This document shows positions 8,029 through 36,203 of a stretch of 64,000 bases of DNA, one piece after another. Positions within the stretch are counted from its first letter, which is position 1, and every line of letters starts with the position of its first letter. The notes beneath the pieces were generated by a model. It did not search any database. It was given only the letters and a program-made list of their open reading frames with translations, and was not told the origin of the DNA. The position numbers and the translations under genes were made by a program. This DNA comes from Achromobacter sp. UMC46 (GTDB lineage: Bacteria > Pseudomonadota > Gammaproteobacteria > Burkholderiales > Burkholderiaceae_B). The stretch lies in assembly GCF_014170335.1 (NCBI RefSeq), contig NZ_LZZS01000040.1, positions 1-64,000 on the forward strand, given 5' to 3'.

Positions 8029-9554
<1,526 letters not shown>

Positions 9555-9603
9555 CGGACCGCTCCATTACACGCCGACGCCCCCTCTATTGAGCAACACT
9601 CGC

Positions 9604-11844: not shown

Positions 11845-13125
11845 ATGCTCGATCTGATTATCAAGAACTGCACTCTGGCTGATGGCCGCACCAACATCGA
11901 CATCGGTGTGGCGCAGGGCCGCATTACCGCGGTGGAGCCTGCGTTGAAGGCTGAGGCGGGTCAGACCGTGGATGCGGCGGGGCAGTTGGTGAGCTCGCCC
12001 TTTGTGGATGCCCACTTCCACATGGACTCCACGCTGTCGTTCGGCCTGCCGCGCGTGAACCAGTCGGGCACATTGCTGGAAGGCATCGCGCTGTGGGGCG
12101 AACTCAAGCCGCTGTTGACGCAGGAAGCGCTGGTGGAGCGCGCGCTGGCCTATTGCGACTGGGCGGTGGCGCGCGGCCTGCTGGCCATTCGCTCGCATGT
12201 GGACGTCTGCGACCCGCGCCTGCTGGCGACCGAAGCGCTGCTGCACGTGCGCGAGAAGGTCAAACCCTATCTGGACCTGCAGCTGGTGGCCTTCCCGCAG
12301 GACGGCGTGCTGCGCGCGCCCGGCGCGCTGGACAACCTGAAGCGCGCGCTCGACATGGGCGTGGACGTCGTGGGCGGCATTCCGCACTTTGAACGCACCA
12401 TGCAGGACGGCGCGGAATCCGTGCGCATCCTGTGCGAACTGGCCGCGGAGCGTGGCCTGCGCGTGGACATGCACTGCGACGAAAGCGACGACCCGTTGTC
12501 GCGCCACATCGAAACGCTGGCCTACCACACGCAACGCCTGGGCCTGCAAGGCCGCGTCACGGGTTCGCACCTGACGTCCATGCATTCGATGGACAACTAC
12601 TACGTGTCCAAGCTGATTCCGCTGATGCGCGAAGCCGGCGTTTCCGCCATCGCCAATCCGCTGATCAACATCACGCTGCAAGGCCGCCACGACACCTATC
12701 CGAAGCGCCGCGGCATGACGCGCGTGCCGGAACTGCTGGCGGCCGGCGTGCCGGTGGCTTTCGGCCATGACTGCGTGATGGACCCCTGGTACAGCCTGGG
12801 CTCGGGCGACATGCTGGAAGTGGCGCACATGGGCCTGCACGTGGCCCAGATGACGGGGCAGGACGCCATGCGTGCCTGTTTCGAAGCCGTGACGACCACG
12901 CCCGCGAAAATCCTGGGGCTGGACGATACGGGCATCGCGGTCGGCAAGCGCGCCGACCTGGTCCTGCTGCAAGCGCGCGACCCGGTCGAAGCGCTACGCC
13001 TGCGCGCCACCCGCCTGATGGTGCTGCGCGCGGGGCAGGTGATCGCGACCACGCCGCCCGCCACCGCCACCTTGAACCTGACGGGCCGCCCGGGCCAGGT
13101 CAGCTTTCAGACACCGGCCCGCTGA
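11845..13125 (+). CDS. codA: Cytosine deaminase (amidohydrolase family)
   Basis: 426 residues. Metal and active-site residues match CodA-type cytosine/isoguanine deaminases: DAHFHMD (His57, His59), the FPQDG glutamine, HCDESDD (His and Glu), GSHLTSMHSM and GHDCVMDPW (Asp). CodA hydrolyses cytosine to uracil and ammonia in the cytoplasm. The gene lies 206 nt after the BMP importer on the same strand, which fits import and deamination of a pyrimidine base. Its last 26 nt overlap the end of the oppositely oriented RidA gene. Isoguanine or another aminopyrimidine remains possible as substrate. Confidence 0.9.
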   Translation: MLDLIIKNCTLADGRTNIDIGVAQGRITAVEPALKAEAGQTVDAAGQLVSSPFVDAHFHMDSTLSFGLPRVNQSGTLLEGIALWGELKPLLTQEALVERALAYCDWAVARGLLAIRSHVDVCDPRLLATEALLHVREKVKPYLDLQLVAFPQDGVLRAPGALDNLKRALDMGVDVVGGIPHFERTMQDGAESVRILCELAAERGLRVDMHCDESDDPLSRHIETLAYHTQRLGLQGRVTGSHLTSMHSMDNYYVSKLIPLMREAGVSAIANPLINITLQGRHDTYPKRRGMTRVPELLAAGVPVAFGHDCVMDPWYSLGSGDMLEVAHMGLHVAQMTGQDAMRACFEAVTTTPAKILGLDDTGIAVGKRADLVLLQARDPVEALRLRATRLMVLRAGQVIATTPPATATLNLTGRPGQVSFQTPAR

Positions 13126-13489
13126 CATACGGCGGCCGCTTGGCGGCCGTCACGATGATCTCCACCAGCAGCTCCGGCGCGGCCAGCTTGGCCTCGCAGG
13201 TGGCGCGGGTGGGCATCGCATCGGGCAGCGCCCATTCGGCCCACACGCCGTTCATGCCGGCGAAGTCGCGGTCGATGTCCTTCAGCCAGATCTGCACCGA
13301 CAACAGCCGCGACTTATCGGTGCCGGCCTGCGCCAGATAGCCGTCGATCTTCGCCAACGCGTCGCGCGTTTGCGCCGCGATGCCGCCATCGGCTGCCGAC
13401 GTCACACCCGCCACGTACACCGTATCGCCATGGATCACGATGCGGCTTAAGCGCTGGTTGGTTTCCTTGCGCACAATATCGTCGTTCAT
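13100..13489 (-). CDS. RidA-family enamine/imine deaminase
   Basis: 129 residues, a YjgF/RidA trimer fold (LSRIVIHGDTVYVAGVTSAADGGIAAQTRDALAKIDGYLAQAGTDKSRLLSVQIWLKDIDRDFAGMNGVWAEWA), ending with the PTRATCEAKLA segment whose Arg is the family's catalytic arginine. RidA hydrolyses reactive 2-aminoacrylate-type imines to keto acids and ammonia. It is the last gene of the long minus-strand operon and overlaps the upstream FAD oxidoreductase by 4 nt (ATGA), so it is expected to process the imine that enzyme makes. It also overlaps the 3' end of codA by 26 nt. Confidence 0.88.
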   Translation of the reverse strand: MNDDIVRKETNQRLSRIVIHGDTVYVAGVTSAADGGIAAQTRDALAKIDGYLAQAGTDKSRLLSVQIWLKDIDRDFAGMNGVWAEWALPDAMPTRATCEAKLAAPELLVEIIVTAAKRPPYVSGPVSES

Positions 13490-14649
13490 TCGTCTTGCTC
13501 CTTTTGCGATGGGCTGGACGCCAGCGCGGCGTCCGAAAAACGGTCAATCCGGAATGGCGCGATCGGCATGTCCGTCGTGCCGGTGGTGATCAGGTCGGCC
13601 ATGATGCGGCCGACGATTGGCCCCAGCTCGAAGCCATGCGCCGAAAAGCCGAATGCGTGGAAGGCGGTCTCGTGCCGGCTGCTGCGCCCGATCACGGGGA
13701 TCTCGTCCGGCATGGCCGCCTCGATGCCCGCCCAGCCCCGGTTCACCACCGCGTCCCGCATGTGCGGGAACAGGTCGCAAACCGTGCGAGCCCCTTCGGC
13801 CAAGGACCGGAAATCCAGTTCAGTCCATTCCGCGTCACGGTCCACCCAGGCCCGCCTGCCGCCGCCGATCAGCACGGTGCCGTTCGTGCGTTGCTTGAAC
13901 GATAGCGCGCGCCCGGTGCCCAGCACCACCGGATCCAGGAAATGGTCCATGCGCAGCGTCACCAGCATCATGGGGCTGATGGCGGCAAGCGGCACCGGTT
14001 CGCCCCATTGCGCGGCGATGCGGTCGGCCCACGCGCCCGCGCAGTTCAGCACCTGCGGCGCGGTGTACGTGCCGGCGTCGGTGTCCACGCGCCATTGGCC
14101 GTCTGCGCGCGCAACGCCGTCCACCCGGACGCCTTCCATGAAGCGCGCGCCCAGGCTTGCCGCCTTCGTGCGGAATGCCAGCGTCGTGCGATAGGGATCG
14201 GCCGCCCCGTCTTCGCGCGCGATCAAGCCGCCCTGGATGGAGGGCGCCATTCGCGGAATCATGTCCAGCAGGTCTTCAGCGCTGATCCATTGTTCGTGCG
14301 TATAGCCATGGTCCGTCATGGTCTGCAGGCGGGTCCGCAGGGCGTCGGCGTCGGCGGCGTTTTCCGCCACGCGCACCTGGCCGTGCTGCTCGAAGCCGCA
14401 GTCGTCGTCCACCAACTCGCCGATGCGGTACCAGAGCTCGCGCGAGGCCAGGGCCAGCGGCACTTCGGCCAGATGCCGGGCCAACGTGCGCACGCCGCCC
14501 GCGTTCACGCCGGAGGCGTGCCGCCCCACGTAGTTTTTCTCGATCACCAGGGCGTGGACCCCGGCGCGCGCCAGATGCAGCGCCGCCGAGCTGCCGTGCA
14601 GGCCGCCCCCGATGATGATGACTTCCGCCGACCGCGTCGCTCCGGTCAT
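13486..14649 (-). CDS. FAD-dependent oxidoreductase, DAO-type flavin subunit (second copy in operon)
   Basis: 387 residues of the DadA/glycine-oxidase/HcnC family. FAD binding is shown by EVIIIGGGLHGSSAALHLARAG near the N-terminus and by the C-terminal GFSAHGFELGPIVGRIMADL. The interior HASGVNAGGVR motif is typical of dehydrogenase subunits of heterotrimeric amine dehydrogenases rather than free oxidases. It begins 4 nt after the stop of the FAD/[2Fe-2S] subunit gene and ends in a 4-nt overlap with the RidA gene. It is the second DAO-type protein of the operon, so it may be an alternative catalytic subunit for a different substrate. Confidence 0.82.
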   Translation of the reverse strand: MTGATRSAEVIIIGGGLHGSSAALHLARAGVHALVIEKNYVGRHASGVNAGGVRTLARHLAEVPLALASRELWYRIGELVDDDCGFEQHGQVRVAENAADADALRTRLQTMTDHGYTHEQWISAEDLLDMIPRMAPSIQGGLIAREDGAADPYRTTLAFRTKAASLGARFMEGVRVDGVARADGQWRVDTDAGTYTAPQVLNCAGAWADRIAAQWGEPVPLAAISPMMLVTLRMDHFLDPVVLGTGRALSFKQRTNGTVLIGGGRRAWVDRDAEWTELDFRSLAEGARTVCDLFPHMRDAVVNRGWAGIEAAMPDEIPVIGRSSRHETAFHAFGFSAHGFELGPIVGRIMADLITTGTTDMPIAPFRIDRFSDAALASSPSQKEQDE

Positions 14650-14653
14650 GTCG

Positions 14654-16096
14654 TCACTTTTTGAGTCGGACGACGGCTTGGCGCGAATCGTCGGTTTGCG
14701 GCAGCGACGCGAGTTCTCCCAAAGTCAGCGGCTTGGTCGGAAAGCGCAGCCGGTAATAGCCCACTTCCTGCGTCGGCACGCCGCGCTCTTCGGCGATGAT
14801 CTCGGCCACGGTCAGGCCGCAGAAGCGGCCCTGGCACGGCCCCATGCCGCAACGCAGGAACGCCTTCATCTGGTTCGGACCCGTGCAGCCCAGCTTGACC
14901 GTGTCGCGCACTTGCGCCGCCGTGACTTCCTCGCAACGGCAGACGATGGTGTCTCCGGTAGGCCGCCGGAAGGCGTCAGGCGCCCTGTAGAGCGCGTCGA
15001 AGAACTCGCGGCCCCTCACGGCACGGGCCAGCGCGTCGCGCGGCGCCACGGCCTCGCTGTCGCGTCTGCGGGCGTCGATGCGGCCCAGCAGATGCGCCGC
15101 CTGCAGGGCCGCCAGCCGGCCGCGGTGTTCCGCCGCCAGCGCGCCCGCGATGCCGGCGCCGTCGCCCGCCATGCCGATACCGTCGACGGACGTCAGGCCC
15201 CATTCATCGACCTGGGGCTCCCAACAGTCCAGCGCCTCGTTCCAACGGTGCTCGACACCGACCGCTCGCGACAGGTTCACGTTGGGCACCACGCCCTGAT
15301 GCAGCATCAGTTGATCGGCGGGCAACGTCTTGGTGACGCCGCCCGCGGTGTAGCGCACGCTTTGCAGGGTGTCGTCGCCCAGCGCTTCCAGCGACGTGAC
15401 GCCTTTGACGATGGGCACGGCGGCCTTCACCGCGCGCAGCAACTTCAAGCCCTTGCCCAGATAGGGCGACCGCAGGAAACCCCAGACCTTGGACAGCGCC
15501 TGGCCCATGCGTCCGGGCGGCGTGGTCTCCAGCAAGGCGTCGATCTTGACGCCTGCGTTCAAGTACTGCCAGGCCACCAGATACAGCAGCGGGCCGCTGC
15601 CCGCCAGCACCGTCCGGTCGGCCGGCACCACGCCTGCGGACTTCAGCAGGATCTGCGCCGCGCCTGCCGTGATGACGCCGGGCAGCGTCCAGCCCGGGAT
15701 GGGGAAGGGGCGTTCCTGCGCGCCAGTGGCCAGCAGCAGCCGGCGCGCGTGCACGATGCGCGCCTCGCCCGCCACCGAATACGCCACCTCGAAACCCTTT
15801 TCAGGATGCGGCGCAGTATGTTCCGCCACGGCCCAGACGGTGGCGCCCGGCACATAGCGCGCGCCGGACTGCCGGAACGGCGCGATCAGCGACGCGCCAT
15901 GCCAATAGTCTTCGCCCAGGATGCCGCGGTCGGTAACCGGCGTCGTGGTGATGGCGCGGTAGATCTGCCCGCCCGGCGCCGGCTGCTCATCCAGCAGCAC
16001 CGTGTCCACGCCCAACCCCGCAGCCAGCGTCGCCGCCGCCAGCCCGGCTGGACCCGCGCCCACCACCAGCAAATCGCATTGCGTCGTATCGATCAT
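14654..16096 (-). CDS. FAD/[2Fe-2S] subunit of a three-component amine dehydrogenase (HcnB/OoxA-like)
   Basis: 480 residues. The N-terminal half is a pyridine-nucleotide-disulfide-oxidoreductase-like FAD domain (CDLLVVGAGPAGLAAATLAAGLG ... LATGAQERPFPIPGW ... GMAGDGAGIAGAL). The C-terminal about 90 residues form a BFD-like [2Fe-2S] domain with the cysteine set CRC ... CGMGPCQGRFC. This architecture matches HcnB, SoxA-like and opine oxidase A subunits, which pass electrons from a catalytic flavin subunit to the respiratory chain. It starts with a 4-nt overlap with the small ferredoxin-like gene. The longer upstream frame (to 16321) is a shadow of that gene. Confidence 0.88.
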   Translation of the reverse strand: MIDTTQCDLLVVGAGPAGLAAATLAAGLGVDTVLLDEQPAPGGQIYRAITTTPVTDRGILGEDYWHGASLIAPFRQSGARYVPGATVWAVAEHTAPHPEKGFEVAYSVAGEARIVHARRLLLATGAQERPFPIPGWTLPGVITAGAAQILLKSAGVVPADRTVLAGSGPLLYLVAWQYLNAGVKIDALLETTPPGRMGQALSKVWGFLRSPYLGKGLKLLRAVKAAVPIVKGVTSLEALGDDTLQSVRYTAGGVTKTLPADQLMLHQGVVPNVNLSRAVGVEHRWNEALDCWEPQVDEWGLTSVDGIGMAGDGAGIAGALAAEHRGRLAALQAAHLLGRIDARRRDSEAVAPRDALARAVRGREFFDALYRAPDAFRRPTGDTIVCRCEEVTAAQVRDTVKLGCTGPNQMKAFLRCGMGPCQGRFCGLTVAEIIAEERGVPTQEVGYYRLRFPTKPLTLGELASLPQTDDSRQAVVRLKK

Positions 16097-16401
16097 GCCT
16101 GCACCTTGCGTGCGCCCAGCTGGCGCTCGATCTTCATGCCTTCGCGCACGGCCGTCATGCAGCCCTGCTGGTTCGCCTGCCCGTCGATAGTGACCAGGCA
16201 GTCGTAGCACACGCCCATCATGCAATACGGCCCGCGCGGCACCTCGTTGACCGCCGTATCGCGACAGGCCGACACGCCGCCGGCGAACAGCGCCGCCGCC
16301 ACGCTGTCGCCCTGCCGGCATTGCAGCTCGGCCCCGTTGACCGTCACTCGCACCGGCGCGCCTTGCGTCTGGCGCTGCGCCTCGTCAAGCCTCTTGAACA
16401 T
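16093..16401 (-). CDS. Small [2Fe-2S] subunit of a three-component amine dehydrogenase (HcnA-like)
   Basis: 102 residues, close to the size of HcnA and of the small subunits of opine oxidases. Four cysteines in plant-ferredoxin-like spacing (Cys60, Cys65, Cys68, Cys81; C-x4-C-x2-C-x12-C) bind the cluster, within YCMMGVCYDCLVTIDG. The subunit relays electrons between the two flavoproteins. The start at ATG 16401 gives a normal N-terminus (MFKRLDEAQRQ). The gene overlaps both neighbours (17 nt with the upstream flavin subunit, 4 nt with the downstream FAD/[2Fe-2S] subunit), showing tight translational coupling. Confidence 0.88.
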   Translation of the reverse strand: MFKRLDEAQRQTQGAPVRVTVNGAELQCRQGDSVAAALFAGGVSACRDTAVNEVPRGPYCMMGVCYDCLVTIDGQANQQGCMTAVREGMKIERQLGARKVQA

Positions 16402-17542
16402 GGAACCTCCGGGTCGAGAAGGGCGCCATGTCGTCGGCAAGCTTGCCGGCCACGACCATGGGCGCCAGATTGAGGGCGTGCGCGGCGGCCAGCGTCACGC
16501 CGCTGTGACAGGTGGCGACGAAGGCGCCCGGGCACGTTTCGGATTGCTGATAGATCGGGAAGCCGTCCTTGGACATCACGCGCAGCGCCGCCCAGCTGCG
16601 CACCACGCGGACGTCGCGCAAGGCGGGGAGGGTGCGCACGGCGCGGTCGGCCAGCGTACCCAGGACAGGCAGGCCCACCACGTTGTCCACATAGCCCGCC
16701 TCTTCCTGGGAGTCGCCGATCAGCCAGGTGCCTTCGTCGGTCTGGCGCAAGGTCGACAGCGGCGTCTCCAGCATGCGCCGCGTGCGCTCCAGCACCACGA
16801 TCTGGCCGCGCTGCGGGCGCACCGGAACGTCCAGGCCGACCTGCGTGCCCAGGTCCTTGTTCGACAGGCCGGAAGCCAGCACCACTTTATGCGCGCGCAC
16901 GGTGCCGGCAGGCGTCGCGATATCGAACACCCCGTCGCGCTGCGTGATGCGCTGCGCGGGCCGGCGCGGCAGGTAATCCACCGTGCGCCGCGCGAAACTC
17001 ATGTGCAGCGCGCGCAGCAGTTTCAGCGGATTGGCGATGCCGTCCACCGGCGTCCACGTCGCGCCGCGCACCTCGGGGCCGATGCCCGGCACCAGGTCGG
17101 CGACTTCCGCGCGGTCCAGCATCTTCCAGTCGTATTGGGCCATGCCGGGCTGCGCCAGCAGCGTCCGCATGAAGGTGGCGCGCGCGTCCATCTCTTCGTC
17201 GCTCAAGAGCACATGCAGGCCGCCGCGCTGCTCCAGGTGCACGTCCACGCCCGTGTCTTCCAGCAACTGCGCGGCAAGCACCGGCCAACCCGAGGCCGAG
17301 GTCATCGTCCACACGCCGTAGCGCGGCAGCCCCATGCCCTTGCTCTGCACCCACACCAGCCCGAAGTTGCCGCGCGATGCGCGATACGCCACGTCGCCTT
17401 CGTCCAGCACCGCCACATGGTCCAGCTCGCGCCGCAAGCCGTAGGCGATCGCGGCGCCCACCAGCCCGCCGCCGATCACCACGGCGTCGTAGATGCCACG
17501 ATGCGCGGGCGCGCGCGGCGCCAGTTCTTTCTCGTCCGTCAT
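16385..17542 (-). CDS. FAD-dependent oxidoreductase, DAO-type flavin subunit (first copy in operon)
   Basis: 385 residues of the DAO family: FAD motif YDAVVIGGGLVGAAIAYGLRREL near residues 18-40, the ASRGNFGLVWVQSKGMGLPRYG segment, and the C-terminal VATCHSGVTLAAAHALNLAPMVV. It resembles catalytic (beta) subunits of opine and amine dehydrogenases. It starts in a 1-nt overlap with the permease stop (TAATG) and ends with a 17-nt overlap with the small [2Fe-2S] subunit gene. Its position directly between transporter and iron-sulfur subunits suggests that it is the primary catalytic subunit. The actual substrate, probably an N-substituted amino acid or imino acid, is not evident. Confidence 0.82.
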   Translation of the reverse strand: MTDEKELAPRAPAHRGIYDAVVIGGGLVGAAIAYGLRRELDHVAVLDEGDVAYRASRGNFGLVWVQSKGMGLPRYGVWTMTSASGWPVLAAQLLEDTGVDVHLEQRGGLHVLLSDEEMDARATFMRTLLAQPGMAQYDWKMLDRAEVADLVPGIGPEVRGATWTPVDGIANPLKLLRALHMSFARRTVDYLPRRPAQRITQRDGVFDIATPAGTVRAHKVVLASGLSNKDLGTQVGLDVPVRPQRGQIVVLERTRRMLETPLSTLRQTDEGTWLIGDSQEEAGYVDNVVGLPVLGTLADRAVRTLPALRDVRVVRSWAALRVMSKDGFPIYQQSETCPGAFVATCHSGVTLAAAHALNLAPMVVAGKLADDMAPFSTRRFHVQEA

Positions 17543-18342
17543 TAGCGTCCCTTTCCGACAAACAGCTTTTCCAGACCGACCACGCGGTCCAGGATAAAGA
17601 TGGCGATGATCGTCACATAAATCAGCACGGCCGACACGGCGGTGACCAGCGGGTCGATGGTGTCTTCGATATGCAGGAAGATGCGCACCGGCAGGGTCGT
17701 CGTGGACGGCGACGCGATGAAGATGGACATCGTCAGCTCGTCGAAACTGGTGATGAAGGCGATGACCCAGCCGCTCACGACCCCGGGCAGCAGCAGCGGC
17801 AGCACCACGCGGCGAAACGCCGTCCAGTTGGAGGCCCCTAGCGATTGCGCGGCGCGCTCCAGCGCCGGGTCGATGCCGGTGGCCGACGCCAGCACCAGAC
17901 GCAGCGCGTACGGCATGACCAGGATCACGTGCGCCACCACCAGGCCCACGTAGGTGCCGGCCAGATCCACCGTGGTGAAGAACTTCAGGAACGCCAGGCC
18001 CAGCACCACATGCGGAATCATCAGCGGCGACAGGAAGAACGCCACCAGCGCCTCGCGGCCACGGAAGCGGTTGCGCGCCAGGGCCAGCGCGCTGGGCACC
18101 GCCAGCGCGATCGCCAGCGTGGCCGACAGGGTGCCCAGCCCCAAGCTGAACCAGAACGCTTCGATAAATCTGGGGTTGTCCAGGATGGCGCGGAACCAGC
18201 GCAGCGACAGCCCGCCCGTAGGCAAAGAAATGAAGCCTTCGGACGTGAACGCCACCGCGCACACCATGACGATGGGCGCCAGGATGAAAAGGATGAACAC
18301 GCTGTGGAACAGCAGGCCGATGGGACCGTTTCGGAATGGCAT
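17542..18342 (-). CDS. Pot-type ABC transporter permease (PotC-like)
   Basis: 266 residues with six predicted membrane helices and the binding-protein-dependent transport domain; the EAA loop is near ALERAAQSLGASNWTAFRRVVLPLLLPGVVSG. It matches the PotC/PotI group of spermidine/putrescine-type importers, which also includes carriers for opines, phosphonates and other cations. Gap to the upstream permease is 1 nt. In this context, the transported compound is likely the substrate of the downstream dehydrogenase, not necessarily a polyamine. Confidence 0.88.
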   Translation of the reverse strand: MPFRNGPIGLLFHSVFILFILAPIVMVCAVAFTSEGFISLPTGGLSLRWFRAILDNPRFIEAFWFSLGLGTLSATLAIALAVPSALALARNRFRGREALVAFFLSPLMIPHVVLGLAFLKFFTTVDLAGTYVGLVVAHVILVMPYALRLVLASATGIDPALERAAQSLGASNWTAFRRVVLPLLLPGVVSGWVIAFITSFDELTMSIFIASPSTTTLPVRIFLHIEDTIDPLVTAVSAVLIYVTIIAIFILDRVVGLEKLFVGKGR

Positions 18343-18343
18343 G

Positions 18344-19210
18344 TCAGGCTCCCGACTGGTTGAAGACGGCGCCGTACTTGCGCTCGATGATCCGGTTGGC
18401 CGACAGCAGCACGACCACCGTCGCCAACAGCAGCACCACGGCCAGCGCCGCGCCCAGCGGCCAGTTCAGCGTGTTCAGGAATTCGTCGTAGGCCGCGGTG
18501 GCCACGTTCTTCAGGCGGCGCCCGCCGATGATGGCCGGCGTGGCGAACGAGCTGGCCGCCATCGCGAACACCATGATCGCGCCCGACAGGATGCCCGGCA
18601 TGACCTGCGGCACGATGACGCGGCGGATCACGGTGAATTGGGATGCGCCCAGCGACAGCGCGGCGGCCTCCGTCGCCGGGTTGATCCGTTGCAGCGACGC
18701 CCACACCGAAATCACCATGAACGGCACCAGCACGTGCGTCAACGCGATCGCGACCCCCAGGTTGCTGTACATCAGGTCCACCGGCGTGGCGATCAGCCCG
18801 ATGCCCATCAGCGCCTTGTTGATCAATCCGGTGGAGCCGAACAGCAATGCCCATCCCAGCGTGCGCACCACCACCGAAATCAGCAGCGGCCCCAGCACCA
18901 CCATCAGGAACAGGCCCTTCCACGGGTTGGCCATGCGCGACAGCACGTAGGCCTCGGCCGTGCCCAGCACCAGGCAGGCCAGCGTGACGGCGGCCGCGAC
19001 GCCGAAGGTGCGCGCGTAGATCTCGTAGTAGTAGCCGTCTGTCAGGATCTCGATGTAGTTCTTCCACGTGAACGTGGCCTGCATGCCGCCGTAGAACTGG
19101 AAATCGAAGAAGCTGATCAGGAACACCAGCGCCATCGGCACCACCAGGAAGGTGGCGTACACCACCAGCGCCGGCGCGCTCAGCACCCAGGGGTTGGCGC
19201 GCGTGCTCAT
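18344..19210 (-). CDS. Pot-type ABC transporter permease (PotB-like)
   Basis: 288 residues with six predicted helices (LSAPALVVYATFLVVPMALVFLISFF at the N-terminus; LFLMVVLGPLLISVVVRTLGW) and the EAA-loop region ATEAAALSLGASQFTVIRRVIVPQVMPGILSG. It is the PotB/PotH-like partner of the next permease. ATG 19210 overlaps the ATPase stop by 4 nt (ATGA). The upstream extension to 19357 is a shadow of the ATPase gene. Confidence 0.88.
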   Translation of the reverse strand: MSTRANPWVLSAPALVVYATFLVVPMALVFLISFFDFQFYGGMQATFTWKNYIEILTDGYYYEIYARTFGVAAAVTLACLVLGTAEAYVLSRMANPWKGLFLMVVLGPLLISVVVRTLGWALLFGSTGLINKALMGIGLIATPVDLMYSNLGVAIALTHVLVPFMVISVWASLQRINPATEAAALSLGASQFTVIRRVIVPQVMPGILSGAIMVFAMAASSFATPAIIGGRRLKNVATAAYDEFLNTLNWPLGAALAVVLLLATVVVLLSANRIIERKYGAVFNQSGA

Positions 19211-20268
19211 GACGGGCGGCCTTGCGGCGCGGGCGCCACCGTGCACATGTCCTGCGCGCGCCAGCGCAGATGCACGGTCTCGCCCTCGGCGGGCACCGGC
19301 ACGCCGTCGTTCTGGCGGATCACCATCACTTCGCCCACCGACGTCTCCACCTGGCACAGCCAGTGGTTGCCCTGGAACACGCGCGTCTTCATGCGGCCGG
19401 GCAGGGCACAGGCAGCAGGCTCGGAAAACAGGATCTTCTCGGGGCGCACGATCACCGCGCTTTGCGGCACCGGCGCGCCATGCATCGGGATATGCGCGTC
19501 GCCCACCCGGGCACGCGTTTCGCCGTCGTACTGTTCGGCCTGCGGCGTGAACACGTTGGCCTTGCCCAGGAAGCCGCCCACGAAATGGCTGGCGGGGCCT
19601 TCATAGGCCTGGAACGGGTCCGCCACCTGTTCCACGCGGCCCTGATTCATCACCACGATGCGGTCCGACAGCGCCAGCGCTTCGGACTGGTCGTGCGTCA
19701 CCAGGATGGTGGTGGTGCCGATGGTGCGCTGGATGCTGCGCAGTTCCAGCTGCATTTCCTCGCGCAGCTTGGCGTCCAGGTTGGAAAGCGGTTCGTCCAG
19801 CAGCAGCACGCTGGGCCGGATGACGAGCGCGCGCGCCAGCGCCACGCGCTGCTGCTGGCCGCCGGACATCCGCGCCGGATGGCGGTCGGCAAGATGCGCC
19901 AGGCCCACCAGTTTCAGCGCGTCGGCCACCCGCGACTCGCGCTCGTCTTTTCCGACCCGTTGCATTTCCAGGCCGAATGACACGTTCTCGGCGGCGGTCA
20001 TGTGCGGAAACAGCGCATAGTTCTGGAACACCAGCCCCAGGCCGCGCTTGTTGGCGGGCACGCGGCTGACGTCGCGGCCATCCAGCACGATGCTGCCGCC
20101 GGTGGGTTCCACAAAGCCCGCGATCATCTGCAAGGTCGTCGTCTTGCCGCAGCCGGACGGTCCCAGCAGCGAGATGAATTCGCCCCGGTTCACGGACAGG
20201 CTCAACGCTTCGACGGCCGTCGTGTCGCCATAGCGTTTGCAAAGGCGATCCAACACTAGATAGGTCAT
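19207..20268 (-). CDS. Pot-type ABC transporter ATPase (PotA-like)
   Basis: 353 residues. Walker A is GPSGCGKTT at 36-44, the signature is [15 protein letters not shown], Walker B is VLLLDEPLSNLD, and the C-terminal third is a TOBE domain (VIVRPEKILFSEP ... VFQGNHWLCQVETSVGEVMVIRQ). This matches PotA/FbpC-type import ATPases. The frame is open to 20310, but ATG 20268 gives the standard MTYLVLDRLCKRYGD start. It lies 55 nt after the binding-protein gene, with a GC-rich hairpin between them. Confidence 0.92.
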   Translation of the reverse strand: MTYLVLDRLCKRYGDTTAVEALSLSVNRGEFISLLGPSGCGKTTTLQMIAGFVEPTGGSIVLDGRDVSRVPANKRGLGLVFQNYALFPHMTAAENVSFGLEMQRVGKDERESRVADALKLVGLAHLADRHPARMSGGQQQRVALARALVIRPSVLLLDEPLSNLDAKLREEMQLELRSIQRTIGTTTILVTHDQSEALALSDRIVVMNQGRVEQVADPFQAYEGPASHFVGGFLGKANVFTPQAEQYDGETRARVGDAHIPMHGAPVPQSAVIVRPEKILFSEPAACALPGRMKTRVFQGNHWLCQVETSVGEVMVIRQNDGVPVPAEGETVHLRWRAQDMCTVAPAPQGRPS

Positions 20269-20280
20269 GAAAGCTCCCGC

Positions 20281-20301
20281 GGGCGGCGCCGGGCGCCGCC
20301 C
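20281..20301. promoter_or_regulatory. Intercistronic stem-loop after the binding-protein gene
   Basis: GGGCGGCGCC (20281-20290) and GGCGCCGCCC (20292-20301) are perfect complements separated by a single G, so a hairpin with a short melted loop forms in the message between potD and potA of this operon. A hairpin in this position commonly protects the upstream binding-protein message and lowers transporter expression. No T run follows, so it is not an obvious terminator. Confidence 0.55.
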
Positions 20302-20323
20302 CGTTTTCAATGCCGGTTGCGCG

Positions 20324-21355
20324 TCAGCGCTCGATTTCCCGGGTCCAGCGCTTGTTCCAGTCGTCCCGGTTCTGGTTCACCGTGTCCCAGTCGATCACGA
20401 TCAGGTCGGCGGCGCGCTTGCCGATCGGCAGCGGCACGCGGGGATCGTCCTGCACCTTGGCCTTCTTGTTGACCGGGCCGTAGCCGTAGGCCGACGCCAG
20501 CTTCTCCTGCACCTCAGGCGTGACCAGGTACTGCACGAAGGCCTGCGCCATCGGGTTGGTGGCCGACTTGGCGACCGGGCAGACGGACGACAGCAAGGCG
20601 TACGCGCCTTCCTGCGGATACACGAAACCCACCGGGAACCCGGTGTCGGCAAACGCCTTGGCGCGGCCGCTGCCCCAGACCGAGATCAACGCCTGGCCGC
20701 TGGAGAACAGTTCGGTCATCTTGCCCGGAGACGGCTCGTACACCAGCACGTTGGGGCCGACCTCGTTCTTGAAGGTGGTGAAGCCGGCATCGATCTTCTT
20801 CTCGCTGCCGCCGCCTTCGCGGGCGTATTCCACCAGCGCGTGCAGGCCGTAGGTGTTGTTCAGCGGCGGCACCACCAGCTGCTTCTTGTACTTGGGGTCC
20901 TTCAGGTCCTTCCACGACGTGGGCGGCGCCCACTTCTTCTCGTCGAAGATCTTCTTGTTGTACATGATGCCGGTAGCCACGATGCCGATGGCGACCGCCC
21001 TGTCGTCCTTGTACCGGGCGGTGCCGTAGATGTCGTCGGCGGGCAGGCCCTTGATCGGTTCGCAGAATCCCAGCGCGATGGCCTGGTACATGGGGCCGTC
21101 GTCGATGATGGCCACGTCGATCTGCTGGTTGCTTTTCTGCGCCTGCAGCCGCGCCACCGTGTTGGTGGAATTGCCCGCCACATAATCAAGCTCGACGCCG
21201 TGCTGCTTGGCGAAGGGCGGGAAGATGTCCTTGCGCATGATGTCTTCGAACGAGCCGCCGTATCCGGCCACCACCAGTTTCTGCTGCGCTGCCGCATTGG
21301 CGCTGAGCCCGGCGGCCACCGTCGCCGCCGCGATCACTGCAAGTACCTTGCCCAT
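20324..21355 (-). CDS. Pot-type ABC transporter substrate-binding protein (PotD-like)
   Basis: 343 residues with a Sec signal peptide (MGKVLAVIAAATVAAGLSANAAAQQ, cleavage near AAA-QQ) and an extracellular solute-binding domain (KLVVAGYGGSFEDIMRKDIFPPFAKQHGVELDYVAGNSTNTVARLQAQ). This is the first gene of the nine-gene operon. PotD-like proteins of this type serve polyamines, opines and related cationic compounds. The sequence ends KRWTREIER, similar in style to the paralogue at 30502. The ligand cannot be read from the sequence. Confidence 0.88.
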   Translation of the reverse strand: MGKVLAVIAAATVAAGLSANAAAQQKLVVAGYGGSFEDIMRKDIFPPFAKQHGVELDYVAGNSTNTVARLQAQKSNQQIDVAIIDDGPMYQAIALGFCEPIKGLPADDIYGTARYKDDRAVAIGIVATGIMYNKKIFDEKKWAPPTSWKDLKDPKYKKQLVVPPLNNTYGLHALVEYAREGGGSEKKIDAGFTTFKNEVGPNVLVYEPSPGKMTELFSSGQALISVWGSGRAKAFADTGFPVGFVYPQEGAYALLSSVCPVAKSATNPMAQAFVQYLVTPEVQEKLASAYGYGPVNKKAKVQDDPRVPLPIGKRAADLIVIDWDTVNQNRDDWNKRWTREIER

Positions 21356-21382: not shown

Positions 21383-21455
21383 TGTCCGTACATGAATGTC
21401 CGGACAAATAATGGATCCAGCGAGACTCCGTTGTCAATCGGTTATTGTCCGTACA
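21383..21455. promoter_or_regulatory. Three copies of a 10-bp palindromic operator between potD operon and GntR gene
   Basis: The decamer TGTCCGTACA occurs at 21383-21392 and 21446-21455, and the perfectly palindromic TGTCCGGACA at 21397-21406. All three lie in the 132-bp divergent gap between the PotD-like gene (ending upstream at 21355) and the GntR-family gene (starting at 21488). Two are 4 bp apart and the third is 39 bp further. Repeated short palindromes beside a GntR gene are the classical sign of its own operators, so autoregulation and control of the operon are expected. Confidence 0.75.
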
Positions 21456-21487: not shown

Positions 21488-22291
21488 ATGACCCGATCCT
21501 CCGAGCGCGCGGCCGGCCCCGGCGGAGCGCGGCAGGCGCGGGGGAAACCCGAATCGCAGGCGCCTGAGGGCGATGGCGGCGGCCCCCGTTACAAGAGCAT
21601 TTTCCAGACGCTGTCGCAGGGCATCAGCACGGGCCGCTACCCCGTCATGACGCTGCTGCCGACCGAGCACGAGCTCTGCGACCAGTTCAACGCCAGCCGC
21701 CACACCATCCGCGAAGCCATCCGCATGCTGACGGTAGCCGGCATGGTGTCGCGCCGTCCCGGCGTGGGCACCCGCGTCGAAACCGCCCGCGCCAGCACCC
21801 GGTTCACGCAGCGCATCTCGCAATTCCCCGACCTGCTGCAGTACGCGCGCAATGCGGCCCTGCTGGTGCAGGACGTGCGCACCATCAAGCTGCCCAAGCG
21901 GCTGGCGGAAGCGCTGGGTTGCGCCGCCGACAAGTCCTGGCTGCACATCAACTCCATCAAGACGCTGGACGATCAGGACACCGCCGCGGCCAGCACGCTC
22001 ATCTACGCCGACCCCGAACACTCCGACGTGCGCGTCGAGGTCAAGTCGCGCATTTCGCTGCTGCGCCTGATCGAAGACCACTTCGGCGACCGCATCACCG
22101 AAGTCAACCAGGAGTTCTCGGCCACGCCGATCAACGCCACGATCGCCAAGCAGTTGAAGGTCGAGCCCAAGACGGCAGGCTTCGTCATCACCCGCCGCTA
22201 TTACGGGGATGGCGGCCTGCTGCTGCTGGCCACCATCACCACCTTCCCGCACGACAAGATGAAGTATTCGATGACGCTCAACGTGGGGTGA
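21488..22291 (+). CDS. GntR-family transcriptional regulator (HutC-like, UTRA domain)
   Basis: 267 residues. A winged-helix GntR domain (about residues 38-105: RYKSIFQTLSQGISTGRYPVMTLLPTEHELCDQFNASRHTIREAIRMLTVAGMVSRRPGVGTRVE) is followed by a UTRA-like ligand-binding domain. ATG 21488 is chosen because AAGGAG lies 8 nt upstream. The gene is divergent from the potD operon and has three palindromes upstream, so it most likely represses that operon until the inducer binds. It overlaps the 3' end of hyuB by 14 nt. The N-terminal about 35 residues are low-complexity Gly/Ala/Arg. Confidence 0.88.
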   Translation: MTRSSERAAGPGGARQARGKPESQAPEGDGGGPRYKSIFQTLSQGISTGRYPVMTLLPTEHELCDQFNASRHTIREAIRMLTVAGMVSRRPGVGTRVETARASTRFTQRISQFPDLLQYARNAALLVQDVRTIKLPKRLAEALGCAADKSWLHINSIKTLDDQDTAAASTLIYADPEHSDVRVEVKSRISLLRLIEDHFGDRITEVNQEFSATPINATIAKQLKVEPKTAGFVITRRYYGDGGLLLLATITTFPHDKMKYSMTLNVG

Positions 22292-24005
22292 CCGGCGCGG
22301 CGCCGGTGCCATAGGCGGCCTGCGCCGCCTCGGCGCTGATCTTGCCGTCCGCCAGGTCCCGCTCGATGCGCGCGCGCGACCGCCCGGCCGGCGCGCCATA
22401 GCCGCCGCCGCCCGGCGTCTCGATGCGCACGCTGTCACCCGGCGCCAGCGCGATGTTGGCCGTCTTGGAAAACAGTTCTTCCGCTTGCGGCGTGCCGAAG
22501 TTGCGGATCAGCCGCGCGCGGCGTCCGTCGCCGCCGCCGTCCACCCCGGCCGCCACGCCCACCGTATGGCTGTCCGAACGCGCCGAGAACACAATGCCCG
22601 GCCCCACCGCGCGGATCTGCTTGGCGATCGCCAGGCCGCCGCGCGTACGCCCCACACCGCCCGAATCGGGGATCATGGCGTACTCGTCCATCATCAACGG
22701 GTACTCGTTCTCCAGCGCTTCGACAGGCAGGTTGGAGGTGTTGGTCATGTGCACGTGCACCGCGTCCATGCCGTCCGCGTCGAAGCGCGCACCCGCGCCG
22801 CCGCCCAGCGTTTCCAGATACACGAAGTGCCCCGCGCGTTCGCGCCAGCGGCCCGAGAAAACGATGGCCGGGCAGCAGTCGTTGCTGGACGCCATGGTCT
22901 TTTCCGGCGGCAGCAAACCCCGGAATGCGCCGAAGATCGCACCCGCCACCTTCTGCGCCGTGATCGACCGCGCGCCCACCGCCGCCGGATGCTCCGGGTT
23001 GGTGATCGTGCCCACCGGGGCCGATACGCTGATGGGGTCGAACAGCCCGGCGTTGGGCGCCAGGTCCGGATCCAGCAGCGCCTTGACGGCGTAGTACACG
23101 CAAGCGCGCAGCGCGTTGAACGGCAAGTTCATCGCGCCGCGCGCCTGTTTACCGGAACCGTCGAAATCGAAGTGCAGGTTGCCGGGGCGCACAGTCAGCG
23201 TCACCTGGATCGGCACCGGATCGCCGCCCATGCCGTCGTCGTCCAGATCGCTGCGGAACGTGTAGCTGCCTTGCTGCAACTCGGCGATGCGGTTCAGCAG
23301 CCGGCGGCGCGTGTACGCGATCACGTCGTCCACCGAACGCAGCACGGCGTCCAGCCCCATCTGCCGGATCAGGCCTTGCACGGCGGCCGCGCCCCGGCGG
23401 TTGGTGGCCATCTGCACGCGCAGGTCCAGCACGCGCTCTTCGGGGTCGCGGGTGTTGGCGCAGATCAGGCGCAGCATGTCCTCGTCCGTTTCGCCATGCC
23501 TGGCGATGCGGCAGGCGGGGATGCGGATGCCTTCTTCGAAAATGGATTTCAAGCCGCCCGCGATCGATCCCGGCACCGCTCCGCCCACGTCCGAATGGTG
23601 CGCGATATTGGCCGCGAAGAAGCGCAGCTCGCCTTCCCAGAACACCGGGGTCACGATGTTGATGTCGGGCAGATGGCTGCCGTCCGCCAGGTAGGGGTCA
23701 TTGCAGATGAAGACGTCGCCGTCGCGGATGTCTGCGGCCTTGAAAGTGCGCAAGATCGCGCCCATCGCGCCGTCCAGCGAACCCAAGTGCAGCGGGATCT
23801 GCGTGCCTTGCGCCACCAGCCGGCCGGCCGCGTCGAACAAGGCCACGGAGCAGTCCTTGCGTTCCTTGATGTTGGTCGAGAACGAGGCGCGCACCAGCGT
23901 GTTGTTCATGTCCTCGGTGATGGACAGCAGGCGGTTGCAGAACACCTCCATGCCGATGGGATCGGCCAGCGCCACGCTGGAGCCGGATTGGTCGGGCTTG
24001 GTCAT
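22278..24005 (-). CDS. hyuB: Hydantoinase B/oxoprolinase-type subunit
   Basis: 575 residues of the HyuB/N-methylhydantoinase B family (FCNRLLSITEDMNNTLVRASFSTNIKERKDCSVALFDAAGRLVAQGTQIPLHLGSL ... DPYLADGSHLPDINIVTPVFW). HyuA/HyuB enzymes are ATP-dependent hydrolases of hydantoins, N-methylhydantoin or 5-oxoproline; related pairs carboxylate ketones. The length matches HyuB subunits. It overlaps hyuA by 4 nt (ATGA) and is the last gene of the tctC-hyuA-hyuB unit. The substrate is unknown; the C-terminus overlaps the GntR gene by 14 nt in the opposite direction. Confidence 0.88.
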   Translation of the reverse strand: MTKPDQSGSSVALADPIGMEVFCNRLLSITEDMNNTLVRASFSTNIKERKDCSVALFDAAGRLVAQGTQIPLHLGSLDGAMGAILRTFKAADIRDGDVFICNDPYLADGSHLPDINIVTPVFWEGELRFFAANIAHHSDVGGAVPGSIAGGLKSIFEEGIRIPACRIARHGETDEDMLRLICANTRDPEERVLDLRVQMATNRRGAAAVQGLIRQMGLDAVLRSVDDVIAYTRRRLLNRIAELQQGSYTFRSDLDDDGMGGDPVPIQVTLTVRPGNLHFDFDGSGKQARGAMNLPFNALRACVYYAVKALLDPDLAPNAGLFDPISVSAPVGTITNPEHPAAVGARSITAQKVAGAIFGAFRGLLPPEKTMASSNDCCPAIVFSGRWRERAGHFVYLETLGGGAGARFDADGMDAVHVHMTNTSNLPVEALENEYPLMMDEYAMIPDSGGVGRTRGGLAIAKQIRAVGPGIVFSARSDSHTVGVAAGVDGGGDGRRARLIRNFGTPQAEELFSKTANIALAPGDSVRIETPGGGGYGAPAGRSRARIERDLADGKISAEAAQAAYGTGAAPVTPR

Positions 24006-26056
24006 GCGAAGCCTCCTTGCAAACGGATGATCAGGTTGCCGTATTCGTCCACGCTGGCGTGCTGGCCAACGCCGACGACGGTGGTGGAGCTCATTTCCTC
24101 CAGCAGCGCGGGGCCGGTGAAGCGCGCGCCGGTAGGCACGCGGTCGCGGTCGTACACCGGCGTCTCCTGCCAGCCGTGCACGGCGCCGAAATAGGCCTTG
24201 CGCTGCCCGATCCTCGCGTCCTCCAGCACCCCGCCGATCCGGCGCGGCGCAAGCGGCGCCTTCACCACCTGGCCCACGGCCTGCATACGGCAGTTGATGA
24301 TCTGGACTTTGCGGTCGTCCACCGTGTAGCCGTATTCGCGTTCGTGCGCCTCCGCGAAGCGGCGCGCGAATTCCGCGTGGCCGCCAGCGCCGGTGTCGTC
24401 CAGGCTGACCTGCACTTCGAAATTCTGGCCCTCGTAGCGCGCGTCGATGGCGCTGTGGCAGACGCGCAGCGCGGGATCCACGCGTTCCTCGGCCAGCCAG
24501 TTTTCAGCCTGCTCGCGCAGGCCCTCGAAGAGGGCCGAGATGGCGGGCCACGTGTCGTCGCCGGCCAGCGAGATCTCGCTTTGCACGAAGTCGAACGAGA
24601 TGTCGCTGAGCAGGATGCCCCGCGCGCACATCGTGCCCGGCTCCTGCGGCACGATGACGACTGGGATGCCGCATTCCTCGGCCACTTCCACCGCGTGCAA
24701 GGGCCCCGCGCCGCCATAGGCATACAGCGCGAAATCCGACAGGTCGTAGCCGCGCTCGGTGGACACCGCACGGATGGCGCGGCTCATGTTCGCCGCCGCG
24801 ATGCGCAGGATGCCTTCGGCGGCGGCGTCCCGGTCCAGGCCCAGCGGCGTGGCCACGCGATCCTCGATCACCTGCCGCGCCGCATCCGCGTGCACCGGCA
24901 TGCGACCGTTCAGCAAAGACACGGGATTCAGCCGCTGCAAGACGATCTCGGCGTCGGTGATCGTCGGCTCCTGGCCGCCGCGGCCATAGCCCACCGGCCC
25001 CGGCACCGCGCCGGCGCTGTGCGGGCCCACTTTCAGCGCGCCCGCGTCGTCCAGCCACGCGATGCTGCCGCCGCCCGCGCCGATCACGTGGATGTCCACC
25101 ATTGGCGTCTTGACGGGGTAGCCCGCCACATGGCGATGCGACGTGAACAGCGGACGGCCGTCGCACACCAGCGACACGTCGGTGCTGGTGCCGCCCACGT
25201 CGAACGTGACCAGGTTCAGGCTGCCGATGGCGCGGCCCACGGCCGCCGCGCCCACCACGCCCGCCGCAGGCCCCGACAGGCAGGTCCGCACCGGATACTG
25301 GCGCACCGTGGCGATCGACATCAGCCCGCCGTTGGAGTGAATGGTGTGCGGTTCGTGGCCGATGTCCAGTTCGCGCACCCGCTGCAGGAAGCGTTCCAGA
25401 TAGCGCGCCATCTTCGGGCCCACCGCGGCGTTCAGCACCGTGGTGGACAGGCGCTCGTATTCGCGGAATTCCGGCAGCACGTCCGATGACTGGCTGATGT
25501 AGGCGCCCGGCATGGCGTCCGCCACGATCGCCGCCGCGCGGCGTTCGTGCGCCGGATTGCGGTAGGCGTGCAGGAAGCAGATCGTCACGGCCTCGATGCC
25601 GGCGGCGGCGAACTGGCGCGCGGCGGCCAGTACCTGCGCCTCGTCCAGCGTCGTCAGCACCTCGCCCGCCGCGTTGACGCGCTCGTCGACTTCGATGCGG
25701 AACTCGCGCGGCACGGCCACGGGGGGCTTGCCCACGCTGTAGTCGTACAGGTGCGGCCGTGTCTGGCGGCCGATCTCCAGCACGTCGCGGAACCCGCGTG
25801 TCGTGATCAAGCCGACGCGCGCGCCCTTGCGTTCGATGATGAGGTTGGTGGCGACCGTCGTGCCGTGCCCCACGTGCGACACCTGCGAAGGCGACACGCC
25901 GTGGTCCGCCAGCATCTGGCCGATGCCGGTCGCGATGGCTTCGGAGGGGTCGTGCGGCGTGGAAGGCACTTTATGAAAGTGCACCACGCCGGCGTCCTCG
26001 TCGATCATCGTGAAATCGGTAAACGTGCCTCCGACGTCTATCCCTATGCGATACAT
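24002..26056 (-). CDS. hyuA: Hydantoinase A/oxoprolinase-type subunit
   Basis: 684 residues. The N-terminal ATPase motif IGIDVGGTFTDFTMIDEDAG, the second segment GPAAGVVGAAAVGRAIGSLNLVTFDVGGTSTDVSLV and the C-terminal NMSRAIRAVSTERGYDLSDFALYAYGGAGPLHAVEVAEE match HyuA, the ATP-binding partner of HyuB. The length is usual. ATG 26056 starts the conserved MYRIGIDVGG; the longer frame upstream overlaps the intergenic region. It follows the TctC-like receptor gene by 38 nt, suggesting that the imported compound is the substrate. Confidence 0.9.
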   Translation of the reverse strand: MYRIGIDVGGTFTDFTMIDEDAGVVHFHKVPSTPHDPSEAIATGIGQMLADHGVSPSQVSHVGHGTTVATNLIIERKGARVGLITTRGFRDVLEIGRQTRPHLYDYSVGKPPVAVPREFRIEVDERVNAAGEVLTTLDEAQVLAAARQFAAAGIEAVTICFLHAYRNPAHERRAAAIVADAMPGAYISQSSDVLPEFREYERLSTTVLNAAVGPKMARYLERFLQRVRELDIGHEPHTIHSNGGLMSIATVRQYPVRTCLSGPAAGVVGAAAVGRAIGSLNLVTFDVGGTSTDVSLVCDGRPLFTSHRHVAGYPVKTPMVDIHVIGAGGGSIAWLDDAGALKVGPHSAGAVPGPVGYGRGGQEPTITDAEIVLQRLNPVSLLNGRMPVHADAARQVIEDRVATPLGLDRDAAAEGILRIAAANMSRAIRAVSTERGYDLSDFALYAYGGAGPLHAVEVAEECGIPVVIVPQEPGTMCARGILLSDISFDFVQSEISLAGDDTWPAISALFEGLREQAENWLAEERVDPALRVCHSAIDARYEGQNFEVQVSLDDTGAGGHAEFARRFAEAHEREYGYTVDDRKVQIINCRMQAVGQVVKAPLAPRRIGGVLEDARIGQRKAYFGAVHGWQETPVYDRDRVPTGARFTGPALLEEMSSTTVVGVGQHASVDEYGNLIIRLQGGFA

Positions 26057-29474: not shown

Positions 29475-30410
29475 TCAATACCCGCGCTGCGGATCGTAGA
29501 TGTTCGGCAATGGCTCGCCGCGCTCGTTGGCCGCGATCAACAACGCGGTGTGCCGTGCGCGTTCCTTGCGGTCGGGGATCGCGGCGCAATGCGGCGTGAT
29601 GATGATGCCGGGATGCGTCCACAGCGGCGAATCCTCGGGTAGCGGTTCTTGCTCGAAGACGTCCAGGATCGCCTGGTGCAACTGGCCGCTGTCCAAGGCG
29701 TCGACGACGTCTTGCGTCACCATGTGCGATCCGCGGCCAGCGTTGATCAGGCTGGCGCCGCGCGGAAGTTGCGACAACGTGGCGGTGTTGAGGATGCCTC
29801 TTGTGGCGTCCGTGGCGGGCAGCAGGCAGACGAGCAGGTCGGTGCCCGCCAGGAATTCTCCGAACTGGTCCTGGCCGGCGTAGGAGGGCAGACCTTCCAG
29901 CGTGCTGGCGCCGCGCGACCAACCGGTGACGGGGAAACCGACCCGGGTCAGGAGTTCGGCGGCAGCCACGCCCAGGTGACCCAGGCCCATGATGCCCACG
30001 CGCATGTCGGCGGCGACGCGCAGGGAGTCGAACAGCTCCCAGTGGCGGCGCGTCTGGTTGTCCACAATCCGCTTGATGTCGCGGGTCAGCATCAGCGCGG
30101 ACGTCAGCACGAACTCGGCCATTTCGGTGCGGGTCCGGGCGGTGACCATGCGGGCGATGGACAGGTGGCGCGGCCGTTGCGGGTCGGCCAGGATGTGGTC
30201 GACGCCGGCGCCGGCGCTGATGATGAGCTTCAGGTTGGTGAAGGTGGCCAGCCGGCCGGCGTCGGGCGCCCAGACCAGCGCGTAGTCGACGGTGGCGGGG
30301 TCGATGTCCTCGTGCCAGCCCACCACGTCCAGCTCGGGCGCGAAGGCGCGGAACTGCGCGCGCCAGGCGTCGATGGCCGCCGGACCGCCGGAATTGATGA
30401 TGAGCCGCAT
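29475..30410 (-). CDS. ghrA: D-isomer 2-hydroxyacid dehydrogenase, GhrA-like (glyoxylate/hydroxypyruvate reductase)
   Basis: 311 residues. The NAD(P) motif is MGLGHLGVAAAELLTRVG; the catalytic Arg (INAGRGSHM), Glu (DVFEQEPLPEDSPLW) and His (ITPHCAAIPD) are in place, and the size and sequence style match GhrA. Such enzymes reduce glyoxylate to glycolate and hydroxypyruvate to glycerate in the cytoplasm. It lies 91 nt after the PotD-like gene on the same strand, as a likely distal gene of the importer/dehydrogenase operon, where it could dispose of a 2-keto acid product. The substrate preference is inferred. Confidence 0.82.
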   Translation of the reverse strand: MRLIINSGGPAAIDAWRAQFRAFAPELDVVGWHEDIDPATVDYALVWAPDAGRLATFTNLKLIISAGAGVDHILADPQRPRHLSIARMVTARTRTEMAEFVLTSALMLTRDIKRIVDNQTRRHWELFDSLRVAADMRVGIMGLGHLGVAAAELLTRVGFPVTGWSRGASTLEGLPSYAGQDQFGEFLAGTDLLVCLLPATDATRGILNTATLSQLPRGASLINAGRGSHMVTQDVVDALDSGQLHQAILDVFEQEPLPEDSPLWTHPGIIITPHCAAIPDRKERARHTALLIAANERGEPLPNIYDPQRGY

Positions 30411-30501
30411 GCGGGTCCTTCCATTCTATGGGCGCGCGCGCCCGGACTGTGCGCGGAGCGCGCCTGCGGCTTGTCCACAGGCGGCGCGCCGCAAGATCTT
30501 A

Positions 30502-34467: not shown

Positions 34468-34504
34468 GATGCCGGCGCCTCTCTCGTCGCCTGGATACGG
34501 ATCT

Positions 34505-35299: not shown

Positions 35300-35314
35300 G
35301 TCGATTCCTTTGCG

Positions 35315-36202: not shown

Positions 36203-36203
36203 G

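Follow-up and report, generated by a model that had tools for sequence, protein, structure and literature searches.

A probable opine-type catabolic operon of the OdhB1-C-A-B2 kind in Achromobacter sp. UMC46

A nine-gene operon related to a described opine dehydrogenase system

The window analysed here is a stretch of 64,000 nucleotides (nt) from Achromobacter sp. UMC46 (NCBI RefSeq assembly GCF_014170335.1, contig NZ_LZZS01000040.1, positions 1 to 64,000 of the forward strand). Nine minus-strand genes at 13100-21355 encode a PotDABC-type importer, two flavoproteins of the DAO family (DAO1 and DAO2), a small [2Fe-2S] protein, a flavin adenine dinucleotide (FAD) protein with a further [2Fe-2S] domain, and a RidA-family protein. 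Judged from their sequences and by analogy, these genes probably form a catabolic operon of opine type, organised like OdhB1-C-A-B2. The operon is a relative of an already described system, ordinary in kind and well conserved. The gene set, order, families, clades, motifs, conservation and palindromes on which this reading rests come from the present analysis; subunit sharing, cofactors and weak octopine activity are published for relatives. A first-pass annotation of the window knew of no published system that combines all of them, but both OdhB1-C-A-B2, as presented in PMC4575208, and the sacEFGH, hyuAB and potABCD region of pTiEU6, as presented in PMC6733357, contain almost the same components.

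Neighbouring genes either overlap, by 1-17 nt, or lie no more than 55 nt apart. The widest gap (55 nt) lies between potD and potA; potA and potB overlap by 4 nt, potB and potC are 1 nt apart, and potC and DAO1 overlap by 1 nt. Within the dehydrogenase genes, the overlap is 17 nt between DAO1 and the [2Fe-2S] protein gene and 4 nt between the latter and the FAD protein gene; a 4-nt gap then precedes DAO2, which overlaps the RidA gene by 4 nt. In a profile search, each of the nine proteins exceeded the curated Pfam cut-off for its own family. Coordinates, strand, junctions and families thus agree with the nine tightly packed genes that the first-pass annotation had placed here (Table 1).

Table 1. 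Features of the operon and its upstream flank in the window.
Feature	Position	Strand	Basis
PotD-type periplasmic binding protein	20324..21355	-	Pfam SBP_bac_8; polyamine pocket residues replaced
PotA-type ABC ATPase	19207..20268	-	Pfam ABC_tran + TOBE_2
PotB-type permease	18344..19210	-	Pfam BPD_transp_1
PotC-type permease	17542..18342	-	Pfam BPD_transp_1
DAO1, predicted type-1 beta (catalytic) subunit, OdhB1 counterpart	16385..17542	-	Pfam DAO; R-X-W; type-1 clade
Predicted gamma subunit, 102-amino-acid [2Fe-2S] protein, OdhC counterpart	16093..16401	-	Pfam Fer2_4; C-X4-C-X2-C-X12-C
Predicted alpha subunit, FAD protein with C-terminal BFD-type [2Fe-2S] domain, OdhA counterpart	14654..16096	-	Pfam Pyr_redox_2 + Fer2_BFD; motifs; tree
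DAO2, predicted type-2 beta subunit, OdhB2 counterpart	13486..14649	-	Pfam DAO; best PDB match 1y56_B; R-X-W; type-2 clade
Rid2-like imine deaminase (predicted)	13100..13489	-	Pfam Ribonuc_L-PSP; closest to PSPTO_0102 and PA5083, arginine aligned
GntR/UTRA regulator, divergent from potD	21488..22291	+	Pfam GntR + UTRA
Three TGTNCGNACA palindromes, candidate GntR operators	21383..21455	.	Counts, conservation across loci, genome scan
Hydantoinase/oxoprolinase B and A (lactamase-type)	22278..26056	-	Pfam; caprolactamase models best, below cut-off; hyuAB adjoin noxBCA on pTiC58

Two predicted beta subunits and one alpha/gamma core

The class to which we compared the dehydrogenase is defined as an alpha4beta4gamma4 complex with FAD, flavin mononucleotide (FMN) and [2Fe-2S] that carries out dye-linked octopine or nopaline oxidation. 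The gene order in the window is beta1-gamma-alpha-beta2. In the phylogenetic tree, DAO1 belongs to a type-1 set of 27 rows that also holds NoxB, OoxB and the B1 gene of USDA110 (support 95/97). DAO2 belongs to a type-2 set of 18 rows, together with the B2 gene of USDA110, LecH and a SacH-type protein (support 97/91). The tree left out one 281-amino-acid outgroup row and the DAO1 relative of locus L173, a stop-broken read of 8 amino acids; at that locus (about 8443-9592), a stop codon breaks the type-1 beta gene, and the cluster continues with a type-2 gene. We assigned LecH and the SacE/SacH-type proteins from their positions on pTiBo542 and the pTi of strain 186, according to the gene order given in PMC6733357.

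The motifs are in keeping with these assignments. GxGxxG and R-X-W are present in both beta subunits and GxGxxG also in the alpha subunit, and the gamma cysteines fit C-X4-C-X2-C-X11-12-C. The alpha cysteines read C-X-C-X32-C-X4-C, wider than the C-X-C-X15-20-C-X4-C printed in PMC4575208; NoxA (X33) and OoxA (X32) also exceed the printed spacer.

In Bradyrhizobium japonicum OdhB1-C-A-B2 (bll7193-bll7190), one alpha and one gamma subunit serve both beta subunits, each in its own complex, and the complexes of the poorly related OdhB1 and OdhB2 both oxidise octopine weakly, as reported in PMC4575208. Because gene order and phylogeny match this system, and Ti (tumour-inducing) plasmids carry similar parts, DAO2 is most likely an alternative catalytic subunit that adds no separate step. 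Its clade with USDA110 B2, LecH and the SacH-type protein, and the R-X-W of FMN-sharing beta subunits, speak against reading the second DAO as a separate enzyme. A related arrangement of two sequential enzymes, in which DAO1-gamma-alpha makes a first product that DAO2 alone, with RidA, oxidises and deaminates, is also unlikely. DAO2 and RidA are neighbours and are both missing from four Acetobacteraceae loci, and Rid genes are known to cluster with amine oxidases generally (PMC4433059), as this arrangement would have it; the R-X-W of DAO2, its grouping with beta subunits shown or proposed to join alpha and gamma (PMC4575208, PMC6733357) and the placement of RidA in a phylum-wide sample speak against it. 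In that sample, RidA occurs at 10 of the 13 loci with an in-operon type-2 gene (L172, whose type-2 match is weak and lies away from alpha and gamma, is not counted). It also stands beside a DAO1 relative at seven further loci that have no type-2 gene, one of which (L176) lacks alpha and gamma as well; we therefore rejected the idea that RidA is tied to DAO2.

Among solved structures, DAO2 best matches 1y56_B, the beta chain of an archaeal proline dehydrogenase. This match and the identical subunit architecture would suit a D-hydroxyproline or proline dehydrogenase cluster (LhpBEF or archaeal ProDH-like). Against such a cluster, there is no epimerase among the scanned window genes, a 4-hydroxyproline epimerase that passes its cut-off sits on contig C35 beside another DAO gene, and L-proline is reported to be inactive with BjOpnDH2 (PMC4575208). 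We give this alternative very little weight. The NCBIfam cut-offs for heterotetrameric sarcosine oxidase were also missed (soxA 128/1164 bits; soxB 116/529 for DAO2 and 66/529 for DAO1).

The importer and its binding protein

A third alternative is a polyamine system, in which PotDABC would import putrescine or spermidine and the flavoproteins would oxidise it. For PotB and PotC, polyamine permease models are indeed the top-scoring ones, and PotA narrowly misses the potA subfamily model, by 7 bits (348.8 vs 355.6). However, all four importer proteins remain under the NCBIfam polyamine equivalog cut-offs (PotA 349/482, PotB 157/348, PotC 162/326 and PotD 46/582 bits). We aligned the binding protein to Escherichia coli PotD and compared the polyamine-contacting residues, which sit at the listed positions of the E. 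coli protein. Eight of them are replaced (W34 by F, Y37 by I, Y85 by G, D168 by L, E171 by N, W229 by G, W255 by L and D257 by S); D stands in place of E36, and Y293 is retained. Because identity in this alignment is low, the loss of the pocket as a whole is more certain than any one position. Because the pocket residues are lost, polyamine-only binding by this protein appears disfavoured. By sequence the protein is closest to 4edp, and the agropine permease protein 6hly is also a better match than E. coli PotD. Since relatives of the dehydrogenase act on opines (PMC4575208) as well, we regard a polyamine system as highly improbable. A rideopine-like compound is a possible substrate class, rideopine being a putrescine-derived opine (PMC10410297).

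The RidA protein

From its nearest solved matches and the conserved arginine, the operon RidA is predicted to be a member of the Rid2 subfamily. PA5083 and PSPTO_0102 are Rid2 proteins that deaminate iminoarginine produced by the FAD dehydrogenase DauA, and the assays described in PMC5619798 used the products of DauA and amino acid oxidase, with no opine dehydrogenase. The Rid2 protein of the operon may instead act on an N-substituted imine. RidA is not named in the text of PMC4575208, whose figure legend speaks of putative opine transporters. In the Achromobacter genome, 17 RidA-family matches exceed the family cut-off.

Conservation of the gene set

Of the 36 other genomes examined in the genus, 27 contain a DAO1 orthologue (84-95% identity). 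In a scan of named genomes, 26 of 38 loci have the nine families together on a single strand in no more than 8.5 kb, counting two (L066, L068) whose end gene is cut by a contig end. Eight of the remaining 12 are cut by a contig end, L076 among them also lacking the upstream importer genes, and four are Acetobacteraceae loci without PotDABC, DAO2 and RidA. Across the phylum, a DAO1 relative at E <=1e-70 was found in 27 of 398 sampled genomes, including the window's own. The sample gave 30 loci outside that genome, or 29 distinct ones after removal of L174, which overlaps L160; all nine genes are present at 10 of these (L154 is cut downstream and L168 upstream). The conserved-neighbourhood check with all nine families therefore bears out the association, which is not due to chance.

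Of 242 genomes searched in the Bradyrhizobium-like genus, 139 have DAO1 relatives at the same threshold. Eight loci hand-picked from these 139 genomes hold all nine genes in six cases; the other two are second, 45% matches in their genomes. Plasmids of Azospirillum and Microvirga also carry the nine-gene set, with the importer genes divergent from the remainder in A. lipoferum. Downstream, the Azospirillum operons have an extra periplasmic binding protein and another RidA gene (L091, 14463-15604; L092, 14309-15478). At L090, L153, L085, L086 and L087, a TctC-type binding protein gene, not PotDABC, adjoins the dehydrogenase genes, as if the importer had been swapped and the enzyme kept.

Comparison with known systems

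In the genome that we take to be USDA110, all nine genes occur in the same order on the minus strand at about 7.92 Mb, where the single DAO1 match at E 1e-70 lies. The two loci share gene order, both beta types, the motifs and adjoining PotDABC and RidA genes; they differ in sequence (42-63% identity) and in the Achromobacter GntR gene, which has no match in the USDA110 locus. Activity is published for the B. japonicum enzymes and predicted for the Achromobacter proteins. Within the open-access library searched, bll7190, bll7191 or bll7193 are named in PMC4575208 alone, and 'opine dehydrogenase' is never paired with Achromobacter among the 20 of 566 matches listed.

Ti plasmids offer further counterparts. 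The succinamopine plasmid pTiEU6 is described as having, in one region, the four-gene dehydrogenase sacEFGH with two beta genes, hydantoinase A/B genes (hyuAB) and potABCD, but its dehydrogenase is paired with the sacABCD importer (PMC6733357). The similar pTi of strain 186 has an order nearer to a paralogous cluster on Achromobacter contig C24 (L084) than to this operon. The octopine occ region (ooxB-gamma-ooxA-RidA, with RidA right after ooxA) and the noc region of pTiC58 both place a beta-gamma-alpha enzyme beside an importer, and hyuAB lie beside noxBCA in the latter. Unlike the operon, they have OccQMPT and NocMQTP importers instead of PotDABC, a single beta gene and a nearby ornithine cyclodeaminase, with arginase too in noc. 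Plasmid pAt2788b of Agrobacterium fabrum (L094) carries PotABC, a DAO1-type gene, gamma, alpha and RidA, and further on gamma, alpha and a type-2 beta gene with hyuAB. It differs in having two separate dehydrogenases and no single shared core; the annotation splits the first of its alpha genes into two pieces.

The divergent GntR gene and its palindromes

The 132-nt interval between the GntR gene and potD contains the three TGTNCGNACA palindromes. In the whole window, TGTNCGNACA occurs four times against 0.86 expected, and four was reached in 2 of 100 shuffles. At least one palindrome lies within 260 nt upstream of potD at all 23 assessed loci with a GntR gene (three at 18 loci, two at four and one at L057), and none at either of two loci without this gene; one further locus, cut by a contig end, stayed outside the count. 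With as many as two mismatches allowed, the tandem palindrome pair has no further match in the genome. Single palindromes with one mismatch gave 33 genome matches vs 40 for the reversed control, with no enrichment, and a single palindrome is therefore uninformative on further GntR targets. The divergent GntR protein is likely the local regulator of the operon, and the TGTNCGNACA palindromes are likely candidate operators.

A proposed route and the points that weigh against it

We propose that the PotDABC-type ABC (ATP-binding cassette) importer would bring in a carboxylated secondary amine, such as an N-carboxyalkyl amino acid, and that the alpha-beta-gamma flavo-iron-sulfur dehydrogenase would oxidise a C-N bond of this substrate to an imine. 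The alpha and gamma subunits, with FAD, [2Fe-2S] and probably FMN between alpha and beta, would hand the electrons towards the respiratory chain. The distantly related DAO1 (type 1) and DAO2 (type 2) would compete for one alpha/gamma core, so that the operon would yield two dehydrogenases that differ in specificity. The Rid2 protein may then speed hydrolysis of the imine to an amine and a keto acid, and GntR may control the operon through the palindromes upstream of potD. Family membership and the literature support the earlier outline of predicted amine-type import, flavin oxidation with electron transfer through iron-sulfur subunits, and imine hydrolysis by RidA.

Several observations weigh against an opine-type operon of this kind. 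NoxB, OoxB, the outgroup and the DAO of a second cluster in the window form long branches, and the tree tool flagged long-branch joins, so placement inside the type-1 and type-2 sets is unsure. Four Acetobacteraceae loci (L079, L080, L082, L083) keep DAO1-gamma-alpha but none of PotDABC, DAO2 and RidA, which means that the nine genes are separable. The palindrome loci belong nearly all to one genus, and kinship therefore explains part of their conservation. The collinear Bradyrhizobium genome is presumed to be that of USDA110. The genes scanned within and around the operon include none for an arginase, an ornithine cyclodeaminase or an opine synthase. Finally, the reported Km for octopine is 19.5 mM for the B2 enzyme, and the activity of the B1 enzyme is much weaker (PMC4575208); because this characterised relative uses octopine poorly, 'opine' may be a stand-in for the real substrate.

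Although octopine is a poor substrate for that relative, the operon is common: the counts of DAO1 relatives in Bradyrhizobium-like (139/242) and of orthologues in Achromobacter (27/36) genomes suggest a common natural substrate. We tentatively speculate, while holding it less probable than not, that this is a widespread catabolic operon that has nothing to do with crown gall and serves the use of an opine or N-carboxyalkyl amine occurring naturally in soil and water, with one core and two exchangeable catalytic subunits for two stereoisomers or homologues, and with hyuAB first opening a lactam form. A search for the natural substrate can start directly from the binding protein, from either beta subunit or from the candidate operators.

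Hydantoinase genes and other neighbours

The hydantoinase A/B genes lie upstream of the operon, where a TctC-type binding protein is also encoded. Their products match their Pfam families but stay under the curated equivalog cut-offs for caprolactamase and 5-oxoprolinase; the caprolactamase subunit models score highest (alpha 581/1000 and beta 254/1000 bits). HyuA and HyuB adjoin 21 of the 26 full named loci (20 in Achromobacter, one in Bordetella) and three of the four Acetobacteraceae loci; HyuA is near just two of the 29 distinct phylum-sample loci (L158, L161). Such proteins have been proposed to open opine lactams (PMC6733357), and one Agrobacterium pathway is reported to use both nopaline and its lactam pyronopaline (PMC4192606). 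The neighbouring genes may open lactam forms of the substrate, a link that is only suggestive. We do not claim hyuAB as a certain part of the operon, given the two phylum-sample loci with HyuA and the position of the palindromes in the GntR/PotD promoter.

A creatinine pathway made up of the deaminase-like gene at 11845, hyuAB as N-methylhydantoinase and a sarcosine dehydrogenase was considered. It was dropped because the gene at 11845 matches the cytosine deaminase model PRK07572 (821 bits vs a cut-off of 438), hyuAB score highest with caprolactamase models and the sarcosine oxidase cut-offs were missed.

Paralogous clusters

The second cluster of the window (29475-37271) comprises PotA, PotB, PotC, [2Fe-2S], FAD/[2Fe-2S], one DAO, PotD and 2-hydroxyacid dehydrogenase genes, adjoined by genes for an IclR regulator and an FMN-dependent dehydrogenase. 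Its gamma-alpha-beta order is the one given for B. thailandensis in PMC4575208. The cluster on contig C24 (85000-104000, L084) combines beta1-gamma-alpha-beta2 with a Dpp-type importer, the latter read by eye, and is similar to the sac region of a Ti plasmid. In the tree, the two beta genes of this cluster join SacE-type (91/58) and SacH-type (92/90) proteins at modest support. The genome has one Octopine_DH-family (PF02317) gene, on contig C4 (973782-974219), away from the clusters on contigs C40 and C24. By eye, its end is overlapped by the open reading frame of a dehydrogenase of another kind, and a D-amino acid dehydrogenase-like reading frame lies about 3 kb off.

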